Source of the DNA: Rhodocyclales bacterium
GTDB lineage: Bacteria; Pseudomonadota; Gammaproteobacteria; Burkholderiales; Rhodocyclaceae
Direction of reading: 5' to 3'
Assembly: GCA_026399435.1 (NCBI GenBank)
Contig: JAPLQX010000017.1
Location: forward strand, 1 to 64,000
DNA: 64,000 nucleotides
In this document: in pieces, positions 1-18,866 of the stretch
Numbering within the stretch: position 1 is the stretch's first letter
How the letters are laid out: each line of letters opens with the position of its first letter
Program-made: the position numbers and the translations under genes
Notes under the pieces: model-generated
Told to the model about the DNA's origin: nothing
The model's input: only the letters and a program-made list of their open reading frames with translations
Databases searched by the model: none

Positions 1-2
1 TG

Positions 3-68
3 AATCTGTTATTTCTCGGTGGGTCCCTCGCCATGCTTGCACTTTCGGCAATTCTATTCTGTGCGTAA
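3..68 (+). CDS. 3' end of a truncated upstream cassette ORF (hydrophobic C-terminus ...NLLFLGGSLAMLALSAILFCA*)
   Basis: Open frame from the window start to TAA at 66-68, ending 6 bp before an attC core site; hydrophobic tail. Confidence 0.5.
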   Translation, partial: NLLFLGGSLAMLALSAILFCA

Positions 69-74
69 TACCGC

Positions 75-143
75 GCCTAACCCATCCATCAACACGGACG
101 CTGGCGATAAGGCCGCCGGCGCCGGTTATGTCAAACGTTGGAC
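75..143 (+). other. Integron attC recombination site (59-be) 1
   Basis: R'' GCCTAAC (75-81) and R' GTTGGAC (137-143) flank an imperfect inverted repeat CGGACGCTGGCG-ATAAGGC-CGCCGGCGCCGG with an unpaired A; ends GTCAAACGTTGGAC as in environmental attC sites. Confidence 0.9.
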
Positions 144-958
144 CTCAACATGAACGCCATTCTCCGGTCACTCCTTGTCGCGGTTGCTTTGGTGTGCTCA
201 CCTGCGTTTGCGGCCGTGGAGAAGTTCACCGATGCTGATGCGCTAGGACGTTGGATAACGTACTACTACACGAAGCCTGAGCCTGACCGCGTCGCTGAAG
301 CTATCCGATCTGCCAGTTCCAAAGGCTTTATGAAGAACGGGCAGAAGGCTCCGCCGTTCATTGGGTTCATCGCAGGGGTCATTTCCAAGAACCCCTCGAT
401 AGCCCAGCCTCTTGCTGAACAGCTCAAGTCTCTGCCGGTAGTTGATCAACCGATACTTATCTTGGGTGTCTGGTACTCGGCATACCCAGAAGCGAAACCG
501 CTTTTGGAGCGGCTCAGGAAATCCATGCCGAAACACAAGGAGATGATTGACAACCTGTTGGCTAATGGCCGACCGAGTCTGCTGGAGCTGCCGTTGGAGC
601 AAGGGCCATGGGTGCTTGACGCACTTTGGGGTTACTTTATGGCAACCGGTGATGACGCCCCGATCGCCAGAATCATTTCTGCTCTTCCGTGGGTCAACGT
701 CCGTGGCGATGTTTCCCGTCTCCTGGTTGGTGGCGCCGCAAGGTGGTCGCTCATTTCAAACGCCATCCAGCACAAGCCGGTAATGACAGCCTGCCGAAAG
801 GAATTGGCGTCTCAGCCGAAAGAGGTAACGGACGTTCTCCGTGAGGTGATTGCTGAAGCCGAAAAGGACATGAAGGAGGGCAAGACGCAGTGAGGTCCAA
901 CCCATCAATCCACAGGACGCTGCGCGATGAAGCCGCGCAGCGCCTGTGATTTCAGACG
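138..958 (+). mobile_element. Complete integron gene cassette (TTGGAC ... attC with R'' GTCCAAC)
   Basis: Cassette 5' end TTGGAC (after G137) matches the complement of its own attC R'' (GTCCAAC 895-901), as expected of one excisable cassette; single ORF inside. Confidence 0.85.
150..893 (+). CDS. Cassette-encoded putative exported protein of unknown function
   Basis: Start MNAILRSLLVAVALVCSPAFA looks like a Sec signal peptide; ORF fills the cassette and stops 2 bp before attC2; alternative upstream start at 138. Confidence 0.8.
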   Translation: MNAILRSLLVAVALVCSPAFAAVEKFTDADALGRWITYYYTKPEPDRVAEAIRSASSKGFMKNGQKAPPFIGFIAGVISKNPSIAQPLAEQLKSLPVVDQPILILGVWYSAYPEAKPLLERLRKSMPKHKEMIDNLLANGRPSLLELPLEQGPWVLDALWGYFMATGDDAPIARIISALPWVNVRGDVSRLLVGGAARWSLISNAIQHKPVMTACRKELASQPKEVTDVLREVIAEAEKDMKEGKTQ

Positions 959-964
959 TTGGGC
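895..964 (+). other. Integron attC recombination site 2
   Basis: GTCCAAC (895-901) ... CACAGG-A-CGCTGCGCG / ATGAAGC / CGCGCAGCG-CCTGTG ... GTTGGGC (958-964); near-perfect stem with one extrahelical A. Confidence 0.92.
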
Positions 965-1005: not shown

Positions 1006-1048
1006 AATCAAAGGGGCCAGGTTCGAATTGATGAATTGGTGAAAATCG
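1006..1048 (+). repeat. 43-bp direct repeat copy 1 (aatcaaaggggccaggttcgaattgatgaattggtgaaaatcg)
   Basis: Identical to 1071-1113. Confidence 0.95.
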
Positions 1049-1070
1049 TTAGGCATCGACATATGAAGCC

Positions 1071-1113
1071 AATCAAAGGGGCCAGGTTCGAATTGATGAA
1101 TTGGTGAAAATCG
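1071..1113 (+). repeat. 43-bp direct repeat copy 2
   Basis: Identical to 1006-1048; 22-bp spacer. Confidence 0.95.
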
Positions 1114-1200
1114 CCGTGCCGCCAGTGCCGACTTTTCGCTGTCTCCGATACCCATTAGTCATCCGAGTTTCTTAACATTTTCTGATTCCCTCATCCTGAC

Positions 1201-2625
1201 ATGAAGTACATCAGTACCCGCGGCCACGCCGAACGCCAGTCCTTCTGCGATATCCTGCTCGGCGGCCTCGCGCCCGACGGCGGGCTTTACCTGCCCGAGT
1301 CCTATCCGCAGGTGGCCGGACAACTCGAGGAATGGCGCGGCCTGTCCTATGCAGAGCTTGCGTTCCGCATCCTGAGCCTGTTCATCACCGACATTCCGGC
1401 GGCGGACCTCAAGGCGATCTGCGACAAGACCTACACGGCGCAGACTTATCGCTGGTGCCGGCCGGGCCGCCAGGCGGCCGACATCGTGCCGCTGACATCG
1501 CTGGAGCCGGATTTCCATCTGCTGGAACTGTCCAACGGGCCGACGCTGGCGTTCAAGGACATGGCCATGCAGTTGCTCGGCAACCTGTTCGAGTATGTGC
1601 TGGACCAGCGCGGCGAGACCATCAACATCCTCGGCGCGACCTCTGGCGATACCGGGTCGGCCGCCGAATACGCGATGCGCGGCAAGCACAATGTCCGCGT
1701 CTTCATGCTTTCGCCCGAGGGCCGCATGAGCGCCTTCCAGCGCGCGCAGATGTATTCCCTGCAGGACGCGAACATTTTCAACATCGCCGTGCGCGGCATG
1801 TTCGATGATGCCCAGGACATCGTCAAGGCCGTGTCAAACGACGCCGAATTCAAGGCGAAGTACAAGATAGGCGCGGTGAATTCGATCAATTGGGCGCGCG
1901 TCGCGGCGCAGATCGTGTATTACTTCAAGGGCTATTTCGAAGCCACCCGGTCCAATGCGGAGAAGGTGGCCTTCAGCGTGCCGTCGGGAAACTTCGGCAA
2001 CATCTGCGCCGGCCACATCGCACGCATGATGGGCTTGCCGATCGCCCGCCTGGTGCTGGCCACCAACGAGAACGACGTGCTCGACGAGTTCTTCCGCAAC
2101 GGTGTCTATCGGCCCAGAACCACGGCGGAGACGCACATTACATCGAGTCCGTCGATGGATATTTCGAAGGCGTCGAATTTCGAGCGCTTTGTTTTCGACC
2201 TGGTCGGCCGCGACGCGGCCATGGTGCGCCAGCTGTGGCGCGAGGTCGATGCCGGCGGCAGCTTCAGCCTGGCCGGCGGTCCGTTCGCCGCGCGGGTGGC
2301 GGACTACGGTTTCGTCTCCGGTTGCAGTTCACACGCCGACCGCCTGGCGACGATACGCGATGTCTGGGAACGCTACGGGCTGATGATAGACACCCATACC
2401 GCCGACGGGGTCAAGGTGGCGCGGGAACACCGCCTGGCGGGCGAGGCGATGGTCGTGCTGGAGACTGCGCAGCCGGTCAAATTCGCCGAAACGATACGGG
2501 AAGCCCTGGGCCGTGATCCGGTGCGGCCGGCGGAACTCGATGGTCTGGAAAACCTGCCGCAGCGCGTCGAACTGGTCGATGCGAAGGTGGATCAGATCAA
2601 GGGCATCATCATCCGCGAATGCTGA
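1201..2625 (+). CDS. thrC: Threonine synthase
   Basis: MKYISTRGHAERQSFCDILLGGLAPDGGLYLPE...; PLP motif LAFKDMAMQ; full length. Confidence 0.96.
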   Translation: MKYISTRGHAERQSFCDILLGGLAPDGGLYLPESYPQVAGQLEEWRGLSYAELAFRILSLFITDIPAADLKAICDKTYTAQTYRWCRPGRQAADIVPLTSLEPDFHLLELSNGPTLAFKDMAMQLLGNLFEYVLDQRGETINILGATSGDTGSAAEYAMRGKHNVRVFMLSPEGRMSAFQRAQMYSLQDANIFNIAVRGMFDDAQDIVKAVSNDAEFKAKYKIGAVNSINWARVAAQIVYYFKGYFEATRSNAEKVAFSVPSGNFGNICAGHIARMMGLPIARLVLATNENDVLDEFFRNGVYRPRTTAETHITSSPSMDISKASNFERFVFDLVGRDAAMVRQLWREVDAGGSFSLAGGPFAARVADYGFVSGCSSHADRLATIRDVWERYGLMIDTHTADGVKVAREHRLAGEAMVVLETAQPVKFAETIREALGRDPVRPAELDGLENLPQRVELVDAKVDQIKGIIIREC

Positions 2626-2913: not shown

Positions 2914-5300
<2,387 letters not shown>

Positions 5301-7299: not shown

Positions 7300-8178
7300 T
7301 CAGAAGCGTGCGTCGGCGAGACAGTCGATCAGTCCCGTGTGCCAGTCGGGCAGGGCCAGGCCAAAGTCGCGCCGAAAGCACGAACAGTCGAGCCGCGAGT
7401 TGGCCGGTCGTGGGGCAGGCAGCGGATAGTCGGCGCTGGTGATACGGTGAACCATCGGCGACTTGTCCAGCAAGCCGGCCGCTTGCGCTGCGGCGAAGAT
7501 GGCTTCGGCATAGCCGTGCCAGCTCGTCTCGCCTGCGGCGGCGAGATGATACAGACCGTCAGGGACTTCCTTGCGGGCGACGATCAGGGCCGTCACGTCG
7601 GCCAGATGGCGGGTCCAGGTCGGGGCGCCGACCTGATCGCCCACGACACGCAAAGGCGCGCGCAACTCGTCCCATTCGCGTCCCAGGCGCAGCATGGTCT
7701 TCATGAAATTTGCGCCGTGCAGGCCGTACACCCAGCTGGTGCGAAAGATCAAATGGCGCCCGCCCGCGGCGGCGATGGCCTGCTCGCCGGCGTGCTTGCT
7801 GCGGCCGTAGACCGCGAGCGGCTCGGGTGTGTCGTCCTCCGTGTAGGGCGTGGGCTTGGTCCCGTCGAACACGTAATCGGTCGAATAATGGATCAGCAGC
7901 GCGCCCAGGCGCCGGGCCTCCTCGGCAAGGATGCCGGGCGCCACGGCGTTGATGGCTTCTGCCACTGCCGGCTCGGCCTCGGCCTTGTCTACTTGCGTGT
8001 AGGCGGCAGCATTGACGACGACCGTGGGGGCAATCGCGCGCACGGCAGTGCGCAGGGCATCCGGCTGGGCCAGGTCGAGTTGGCTGCGATCGCAGGCGAC
8101 CAACTCGCCGAGGCAGGCCAGCGAGCGTTTCAATTCGCGACCGAGCTGCCCGGCGGCGCCCGTGAGCAGGATCTTCAT
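7300..8178 (-). CDS. rfbD: dTDP-4-dehydrorhamnose reductase
   Basis: [39 protein letters not shown]. Confidence 0.95.
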   Translation of the reverse strand: MKILLTGAAGQLGRELKRSLACLGELVACDRSQLDLAQPDALRTAVRAIAPTVVVNAAAYTQVDKAEAEPAVAEAINAVAPGILAEEARRLGALLIHYSTDYVFDGTKPTPYTEDDTPEPLAVYGRSKHAGEQAIAAAGGRHLIFRTSWVYGLHGANFMKTMLRLGREWDELRAPLRVVGDQVGAPTWTRHLADVTALIVARKEVPDGLYHLAAAGETSWHGYAEAIFAAAQAAGLLDKSPMVHRITSADYPLPAPRPANSRLDCSCFRRDFGLALPDWHTGLIDCLADARF

Positions 8179-8717: not shown

Positions 8718-9631
8718 CCACGCACCTCACGTTCGAGCAGGCCCAGCAGATATTGGCCATAGCGGCTCTTGGCCAACGGCTCGGCCAGCTTGGCCAGCTG
8801 CGCATCATTGATCCATTTCTGCCGCCAGGCCACTTCCTCCGGACAGGCCACCTTGAGGCCCTGGCGCTTTTCGATGACCTCGATGAACTGGCCGGCTTCC
8901 AACAGCGACTCATGGGTGCCGGTGTCGAGCCAAGCCATGCCACGGCCCATGATCTCGACCTTGAGCTGGCCCTTTTCGAGATAGATCCGGTTGAGGTCGG
9001 TGATCTCGAGCTCGCCGCGCGTCGAGGGCTTGAGTCGGGCTGCGATGTCGCACACCTGCTCGTCGTAGAAGTAGAGCCCGGTGACCGCATAGCGCGACTT
9101 CGGCGCCTTGGGCTTCTCTTCGATGCTGATGGCGCGTCCCGCCGCATCGAACTCGACCACGCCGTAGCGCTCCGGGTCGCTGACCGCGTAGGCGAACACC
9201 GTGGCGCCCGCGCCGACTGTTAACCCACCCCCGGCCGCACTCTGCAACTGCTGGGCGAAATCATGGCCGTAGAACAGGTTGTCGCCGAGCACCAGGGCCG
9301 AGGGATGGTCGCCGACGAAGTCACGGCCGATGACGAAGGCCTGCGCCAGTCCGTCCGGGCTGGGTTGCACCGCGTAGGTGATCTCGATGCCCCACTGCGA
9401 GCCATCGCCCAGCAGCTGTTCGAAGCGCGGCGTATCCAGCGGCGTCGAGATCAGCAGGATTTCACGAATGCCCGCCAGCATCAGCGTGGTCAGCGGGTAG
9501 TAGATCATCGGCTTGTCGTAGATCGGCAGCAGCTGCTTGGACACGGCCAGCGTGACCGGGTGCAGCCGAGTACCGGAGCCGCCGGCGAGGATGATGCCGC
9601 GGGTGCTCTTCGTTTGGGGCAACTGGCTCAT
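8714..9631 (-). CDS. rfbA: Glucose-1-phosphate thymidylyltransferase
   Basis: [37 protein letters not shown]; start placed at MSQLPQ. Confidence 0.95.
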
Positions 9632-10903: not shown

Positions 10904-13207
10904 ATGCGTATTGTGTGTCTGGGCGGAGGCCCCGCGGGTTTGTATTTCTCGATCCTGATGAAGAAGGCCAACCCGGCCTGCGACATCACCGTGATTGAAC
11001 GCAACCAAGCCGACAGCACCTTCGGCTGGGGCATCGTGTTTTCCGACAAGACGATGGACGGCTTCCGCCAGGACGATCCGCAGGTGGTCGCGGAAATCGA
11101 GCGCAACTTTCATCACTGGGACGATGTCGACGTGTTCTTCAAGGGCCGGCGCATGGTGTCCGGCGGCCACGGTTTTTGCGGCATCGGGCGCCTGAAGCTG
11201 CTGCAGATTTTTCAGGCCCGCGCCAGGGAACTCGGCGTGAACCTCAAATTTGAGACCGAGTTCAAGGATCCGGACGACTATTCCAGGGAGTACGACCTCG
11301 TCATCGGTTCCGATGGCGTGAATTCGACTACGCGAGCCAAGTACCAGAGCCATTTCAATCCGCGCATCGACGTGCGCAAGTGCCGTTTCATCTGGCTCGG
11401 TGCCAAGAAGAAGCTCAATGCCTTCACCTTCGCCTTCAAGGAAACGCCGTGGGGCTGGTTCAATCTCCACGCCTACCAGTTCAACGAGGAATGGGCGACC
11501 TTCATCATCGAAACCCCGGAAGAGACCTGGCTTAAGGCCGGCATCGACGAGATGGACCCGGATCAGTCGATCGCCTTTTGCGAAGAGTTGTTTGCCGACA
11601 TGCTGGATGGCAGCCGCCTGATCTCCAACGCGCGCCATTTGCGCGGCTCGGCGGTCTGGCTCAAGTTCAACCGCGTGATGTGCGAGCGCTGGTTCAAGGA
11701 CAACATCGTGCTGCTCGGCGATGCGGCGCACACGGCGCACTTCACCATCGGTTCCGGCACCAAGCTGGCGATGGAAGATGCGGCCGCGCTGGTCAAGGTG
11801 ATGAACAGCACCGAAGGCGACGTGCCGACGCGCCTCGCCCGCTACCAGTCCGAGCGCGAAATCGAGGCGCTCAAACTGCAGAGCGCGGCACGCAACCGGA
11901 TGACCTGGTTTGAGGATGTCGAGCGCTATGTCGGCATGGAGCCTGAGCAGTTCGCTTTCGCCGTGCTCACCGGCAGCCAGCGCGTCGGCCACGCCAACCA
12001 GAAGCTGCGCGATCCGGCCTACACCGAAGACCTCGATCGCTGGTTTGCCGCAAAGTGCGGCGTGCCGACGCCTCCCGGTGCAACGCCGGCACCGCCGATG
12101 TTTACGCCTTTCAAGTTGCGCGGCATGACGCTGGCAAATCGCGTCGTGGTTTCGCCGATGTGCATGTATTCGGCGGAGGATGGAATGCCCACGGATTTTC
12201 ATCTCGTCCATTACGGCAGCCGCGGCATGGGCGGCGCGGCGCTGATTGTCACCGAGATGACCTGCGTCTCCGCCGACGCACGCATTACGCCGGGATGTAC
12301 CGGCATCTGGAACGACGCCCAGCAGGACGCCTGGAAGCGCATCGTCGACTACATCCACGCCAACGGCAATACCAGGGTTTCGCTGCAGATCGGCCACGCC
12401 GGGCGCAAGGGCTCCACCCGGCTGGCCTGGGACGCCATCGACCAGCCGCTGCAGAGCGGCGGCTGGCCGCTGCTGGCGCCGTCGCCGCTGCCCTATATCC
12501 CGGGCACCTCGCAGGTGCCGAAGGAAATGGACAGGGCCGACATGGATCGGGTCAAGGCGGATTTCGTCGCCGCCACTCGCCGTGCCACCAGCGCCGACTT
12601 CGACATGGTCGAATTCCATGCTGCCCACGGCTACCTGATGTCGTCCTTCATTTCGCCGCTGACCAACCAGCGCCAGGACGAGTACGGCGGCAGCCTGGAG
12701 AACCGTTGCCGCTACCCGCTGGAGGTGTTCCGCGCCATGCGTGAAGTCTGGCCCGCAGACAAGCCGATGTCGGTGCGCATCTCGGCCCACGACTGGGTGC
12801 CCGGCGGGATTGCCCCGGATGACTCGGTGGCGGTCTCGCGGCTGTTCAAGGAGGCGGGCGCCGACATCATCCACGTCTCCTCGGGCCAGGTCAGCAAGGA
12901 GGAGGCGCCCGTCTATGGCCGCATGTTCCAAGTGCCGTTTTCCGACCAGATCCGCAACGAACTGGATGTGCCGACCATCGCCGTCGGCAACATTTTCGAG
13001 GCCGATCACGTCAATACCATCATTGCCGCCGGCCGTGCCGACCTGTGCGCGCTGGCCCGCCCGCATCTGGCCGATCCGGCCTGGACGCTGCATGCCGCCG
13101 CCGAGCAGGGCTACAAGGAGATACCGTGGCCGAAGCAGTACCAGGGCGGGAAGCTGCAGCTCGAGCGCAATCTCGAGCGCGCGGGCCAGCTCGCGCTGAA
13201 CGCCTGA
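10904..13207 (+). CDS. Bifunctional flavin monooxygenase / Old Yellow Enzyme-type oxidoreductase (salicylyl-CoA 5-hydroxylase or 2-aminobenzoyl-CoA monooxygenase/reductase type)
   Basis: N-terminal FAD motif [15 protein letters not shown] and [28 protein letters not shown] fused to an OYE domain ([28 protein letters not shown]...). Confidence 0.88.
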
Positions 13208-17979: not shown

Positions 17980-18866
17980 TCGACAACGCCATGCCGGATC
18001 AGGGCGGCACGCCGCGTCTCGCCCAGCTTGCCGCTCAGGTCGCCGTCTCACCAGCGCCGACTCTTGCGGCTGGCGCGGCGGTCGCGGACCATCGGCCCCG
18101 GGTCTATGGCGAACTCATGGCCGAAATGCCGCGCGACCTCTACATCCCACCGGATGCGCTGGAGATCATTCTCGATTCCTTCGAAGGTCCGCTCGACCTG
18201 CTCTTGTACCTGATCCGCCGGGCCAATATCAGTGTGCTGGACATTCCGATGGCGCCGCTCACGGCACAGTATCTGGTGTATGTCGAGGCGATGCGCAAGG
18301 GCAATCTGGAGCTCGCCGCCGAATACCTGCTGATGGCGGCGATGCTAATCGAGATCAAGTCGCGCATGCTGCTGCCGCGTCCGCCCAAGGCCGAGAATGG
18401 CGAGCCGGAAGATCCGCGTGCCGAGTTGGTGCGCCGCCTGATCGAATACGAACGCATGAAGGCGTCGGCGTCCAGGCTCGATGAAATGCCGCAGGTCGGG
18501 CGCGACTACGAATGGATCACCGTGTGGATCGCCGACAAGGTCGTCGAACGCCAACCCGAGGTAAGCTTGCACGATCTGCAAGTGGCCTGGCTGTCCCTGA
18601 TGAAGCAGGCCAGAGTGCATCAGCATCACAAGATTCATCGCGAGGAACTTTCCGTGCGCGAACACATGAGCTTGATCCTGCGCCGGTTGCAGGGAGGGGG
18701 CTACGTGGTGTTCGACCAGTTGTTCGACCTGACGCTGGGCGCGCAGGGACTGGTAGTGAGTTTTCTGGCAATGCTGGAACTTGCCCGCGAATCGCTGATC
18801 GAAATCACTCAGAACGAGGCCATGGCGCCCATTTACGTGAAACTGCCCGATGCTGCCGCTGCATAA
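17976..18866 (+). CDS. scpA: Segregation and condensation protein A
   Basis: [32 protein letters not shown]. Confidence 0.93.

Follow-up and report, generated by a model that had tools for sequence, protein, structure and literature searches.

A gene cassette before thrC in a Rhodocyclales bacterium, probably the distal end of an attI-bearing, integrase-less array in the hom-thrC operon

The left end of the window (the whole 64-kb stretch of DNA analysed here) holds an integron gene cassette bracketed by two attC sites. Most probably (a probability of roughly 0.7, which covers the structural part of the explanation) it is the distal end of an attI-bearing CALIN lying between hom and thrC, the proximal end of which is on a second contig, C8, of the same genome. 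CALINs, clusters of attC sites lacking an integron integrase, are known in Xanthomonas (PMC12444791) and from IntegronFinder 2.0 (PMC9024848); such clusters are found at conserved chromosomal places, and mobilisation in trans is ascribed to them (PMC12444791). The original prediction had placed the cassette next to thrC, which is right as to adjacency and missed the setting, inside the hom-thrC operon.

The source genome (G000) is a draft of 57 contigs, 81% complete. Window position 1 is base 1 of contig C20 (140,661 bases); window and contig thus share their left edge, and no upstream sequence is available on C20. The bare pattern RYYYAAC-N-GTTRRRY was dropped as a means of finding attC sites, since its 12 matches were outnumbered by 52 in the reversed control, per strand, and a covariance model was used instead, trained on 17 sites from other contigs and genomes with the window sites left out. 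Over the 64-kb window the model scores the site at 75-143 at 64.6 bits (E 2.4e-15) and that at 895-964 at 89.1 bits (E 3.7e-22), with no third match on either strand up to E=10; Rfam gives no match at either place. The cores are R'' GCCTAAC and R' GTTGGAC in the first site and R'' GTCCAAC and R' GTTGGGC in the second. On folding, the stems (GGACGC...GCGCC) carry an extrahelical A, and the site that follows the cassette ORF has R'', L'', L' and R' elements together with a folded stem. Its R'' GTCCAAC (895) is exactly complementary to G+TTGGAC at the 5' end of the cassette (138), as in a circular cassette. The two are genuine attC sites and bracket one gene cassette (Table 1). The claims made at the outset of two attC sites with such cores and an extrahelical A, of matching cassette ends, and of a true cassette at the distal end of an array are thus borne out. 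Low model scores and a lack of further attC or intI would have counted against them; the two sites score highly, and in the genome as a whole there are some 18 attC sites, as well as two intI genes.

Table 1. Features at the left end of the window and sites of the dispersed motif within it
Feature	Position	Strand	Evidence
3' end of preceding, partial cassette, cut by contig edge; hydrophobic ORF tail, TAA 66-68	1..74	+	
attC of preceding cassette	75..143	+	covariance model
Integron gene cassette, TTGGAC to G of next core GTT	138..959	+	complementary ends; recurs in two other attC arrays
Payload CDS (more probable start), 247 aa, signal-peptide-like N-terminus, dN/dS ~0.1	150..893	+	
attC of payload cassette, last in array	895..964	+	covariance model
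Two exact 43-nt direct repeats with CAAAGGGGCCAGGTTCG	1006-1048, 1071-1113 (span 1006..1113)	+	
Tail common to hom-thrC inserts of six other species	1111..1200	+	
thrC, threonine synthase, right-hand gene of interrupted operon	1201..2625	+	Pfam PF14821, PF00291, PF24857
TCRCCGTNYCGCCAGCGCCGACTTTY motif	1111-1136, 9196-9221, 12577-12602, 18040-18065; 5200-5225(-), 7425-7450(-)		

The payload ORF is open from TTG138, giving the 251-aa product first proposed, and from ATG150 it encodes 247 aa. ATG150 is more probably the start, since the GTTGGACCTCA-ATG spacing (GTTGGAC to ATG) is constant in both close homologues; position 138 lies within the R' core, so that the 251-aa version probably has 4 residues too many. 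The two close homologues are on the MAG contigs WBUF01000105 (89% aa identity) and JAPKGD010000326 (86%), filed as Rhodocyclaceae bacterium and Bdellovibrionales bacterium, respectively; the latter may reflect a binning error. In both, the 5' end is identical to that in the window, the ORF is bracketed by attC sites, and the cassettes beside it differ from the neighbours seen here. The payload attC of JAPKGD010000326 is identical to the window site at 68/70 positions, and the ORF on WBUF01000105 carries another attC, of 87 nt. Across the three genomes DNA identity is 84-86% and dN/dS is 0.10-0.13, which indicates purifying selection on the protein. The payload is a gene mobile as a cassette and under selection. 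Relatives 75-89% identical are found in three genomes; for the 75% homologue, which belongs to a different family within the order, the covariance model detects no attC, so that some relatives are not cassettes. More distant relatives (28-33%) occur on Bradyrhizobium and Acaryochloris plasmids and in other genera. A scan of viral contigs found no relative of the payload. Pfam, NCBIfam and PADLOC give no family match and a PDB profile search nothing credible (best E 0.014), in agreement with the earlier view that the protein belongs to no recognised family. An AlphaFold2 model built from three near-identical rows is helical and of low confidence (pLDDT 48, pTM 0.40). The N-terminus, judged by eye, looks like a signal peptide, and it is on this reading that the proposed export of the product is based; a small helical periplasmic protein is the best guess.

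The proximal end of the array is assigned to C8. Near the end of this contig the order is hom, an antitoxin-like gene related to counterparts in other hom-thrC inserts, small ORFs, an attI-like site (TTATTGGACAGTCCGATAATCTGTTTAC-N24-GTTGGGG) and a cassette, the last with 87% identity over 138 nt to a cassette behind an attC on contig C45. The genus has intI genes of several types, to each of which a distinct attI belongs, and the C25-type attI comprises a GACAGTCC-like palindrome and GTTTAC-N24-GTT. The C8 site has the sequence layout of these intI-linked attI. The pattern GTTTAC-N24-GTTRGG alone is weak, with two matches where about one is estimated by chance, and the claim therefore rests on a full scoring matrix built from intI-linked sites, on which the C8 site reaches 55 bits and non-attI places in the G000 contigs examined fall below 0. 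By its sequence the C8 site is thus described as attI-like. No intI was found on the hom side of C8 or on C20. The two attC sites on C20, with no intI on either contig, correspond to a CALIN (at least two attC, no neighbouring intI), and an intI beside the attI of the array, as in a complete integron, is seen neither in the hom-side sequence of C8 nor in the bridged gaps of relatives. No contig in G000 spans C8 to C20, and we infer the junction between them.

Two full-length intI genes are present in G000, on C54 and C25, the array side of each at a contig edge. With C20 itself ending within an array, the window could belong to an ordinary intI integron that the assembly has broken, leaving the distal end here, as the original prediction implied by looking for an integrase upstream. 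In the complete relative G002, however, a relative of the C25 intI stands at the head of an array that runs up to the C45 flank; the other intI has the C54 flank behind it and an array that runs up to the C2 flank. By this synteny both intact intI genes of G000 head other arrays. With C25 and C45 paired, and likewise C54 and C2, C8 and C20 are left together, as the hom-thrC order requires. Furthermore hom, which lies to the left in all relatives, leads on C8 to an attI without intI, and the bridged hom-thrC gaps of the genus also lack intI. An ordinary integron severed in this way is therefore very unlikely, and the implied upstream integron is not supported. In a draft of this completeness, an intI may still lie in unassembled sequence.

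The hom-thrC gap was compared in 29 genomes of the same genus with both genes on one contig; in G000 itself hom and thrC are on separate contigs (C8 and C20). In 21 of the 29 the genes form a tight operon, overlapping slightly or lying no more than 8 bp apart; in one the gap is 150 bp, and seven (G002, G004, G007, G008, G015, G024 and G041) carry an insert of 1.0-3.0 kb. Small toxin-antitoxin-like genes stand at the hom-side start of most inserts. One attC site is found in each of the G002 and G024 inserts, two in that of G015 and three in that of G008, all oriented along the hom-thrC direction; five species have attC between hom and thrC. The gaps of G002 (assembled as one contig), G008, G015 and G024 are bridged, and in none of them was an intI found. 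The inserts at six loci (L032, L033, L035, L042, L077 and L080), with toxin-antitoxin-like genes and tail, are related across species, but on a hom+thrC tree the presence of an insert is scattered as much as shuffled labels. Such patchiness would follow from precise loss, or from an exchange in which entire operon alleles are swapped.

These gaps bear on the way in which cassettes entered the operon. The G024 gap matches the attI that belongs to a G044 intI at 33/34 nt, and its first cassette starts TTAGAG directly at this attI and has an attC starting CTCTAAC, as expected from insertion at attI. A type-A attI with an altered core (66.5 bits) is present in the G008 gap, and the G015 gap has a weaker attI likeness (80% over 61 nt), also with an altered core. 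Entry of the cassettes at a non-classical genomic site (attG) instead of an attI is a type of insertion that has been described, in work cited in PMC12444791, and the G002 gap, with one attC and no recognisable attI, would suit it. In G000 and in G024, nevertheless, an attI-like sequence precedes the first cassette, with relics in G008 and G015, and the likeness of the G002 gap to that of G024, about 640 bp in common, stops where the G024 attI begins; entry at attG is consequently very unlikely.

For the favoured reading, an attI-bearing CALIN between hom and thrC, the following course may be proposed. The array would be oriented with hom-thrC transcription, its proximal attI behind hom and a toxin-antitoxin remnant, and the platform would derive from an integron whose intI was lost. 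An IntI encoded elsewhere would insert and excise cassettes at the C8 attI in trans, most plausibly that of C25, which has an attI of matching layout. The cassettes would be transcribed through read-through from hom. A search of positions 1-1260, a weak test, found no sigma-70-like promoter. Plain decay shares the observed facts with this explanation and differs only in activity: an old hom-thrC integron would have lost its intI, and the attI and cassettes would be inert relics served by no integrase. The chances of this are about even. The altered attI cores of G008 and G015 suggest decay and not use, the attI is gone from G002, and CALINs are generally seen as degraded integrons (PMC9024848); inert relics are less readily reconciled with intact window attC sites whose scores resemble those in the intI arrays, with a C8 attI that retains the layout of the resident intI-B attI, and with a payload under purifying selection.

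The hom-thrC array resembles CALINs in its attC-bracketed cassettes, the lack of an adjacent intI and its conserved chromosomal place. Unlike them, it keeps an attI-like site proximally, and several orphan attI occur in the one genome, G000, one of them within a biosynthetic operon. With the sedentary chromosomal integron of the same genome (C25-C45) it has in common the attC type, the attI layout GTTTAC-N24-GTT and one cassette, whereas its own attI is without an adjoining intI. A CALIN with its own attI, several per genome, or inside a biosynthetic operon was not found in the open-access literature, which is weak evidence. IntegronFinder restricts attI detection to class 1 (PMC9024848), and with finders ignoring attI of other kinds an orphan attI would be overlooked.

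Two further attI-like sites without intI are found in G000. One, on a 68-kb contig (C27:3321-3384, 49 bits), heads a cassette for a HEC-07 candidate defence (anti-phage) protein (L110/L126:1560-3384; PADLOC, 6.7e-113), and a cassette for a HEPN_LA2681 protein also follows this attI, behind an attC. The other is at a contig edge (C34:1-33; L125:1-60), where sequence resembling an intI-linked leader extends for some 120 nt beyond the attI, toward the missing intI, a pattern expected after intI loss. Weak tblastn matches on C34 and C27 to a long ORF from L073 cover its attI and leader part and not the integrase. Elsewhere in the genome, the end of C4 (L108:2383-2523) and the start of C19 (L109:1-141) overlap exactly over 141 nt with one lone attC, and C33 (L107:2863-3788) has two attC sites inside the contig without intI, a possible further CALIN.

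More tentatively, and with considerable doubt, it may be suggested that in this betaproteobacterial genus attI stand apart from intI at several places, hom-thrC included, and are loaded in trans by the resident IntI. Cassettes would then be spread over several separately transcribed platforms rather than one array. In the usual picture an integron consists of a single integrase, a single attI next to it and a single array. Were attI without intI retained at several places, and this in several species, cassette capture could extend over the chromosome and come under a housekeeping promoter.

Additional motifs mark the stretch between the array and thrC. The CAAAGGGGCCAGGTTCG of the two window repeats runs inverted with respect to the copy preceding the orphan attI on C8. 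The 16-nt motif CGARCCWGGCCCCTTT is found ahead of the C8 attI and, inverted and in two copies, after the attC at 895-964; elsewhere in G000 it has a single additional match, on C44. The tail of about 90 nt before thrC is present in all attC-bearing inserts and in those of G041 and G004, and the window tail has 90% identity over 131 nt to that of G024. It begins with a dispersed 26-nt motif (about TCRCCGTNYCGCCAGCGCCGACTTTY), for which a matrix trained on other species, with the cut-off at 24 bits, detects 19 sites over 184 kb of G000 and none in the reversed control. The motif is scattered across the genus, inside ORFs in all frames as well as in intergenic DNA, and its flanks are not conserved. 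No paper containing its core was found in the literature. Cassettes on both C8 and C45 also contain it, and it lies close to two of the orphan attI, which may be due to chance at such density. Exact matches occur in at least 120 stretches of viral contigs, on more than 100 contigs. The motif looks like a putative recognition sequence, either of the DNA-uptake type or of another genome-wide kind.
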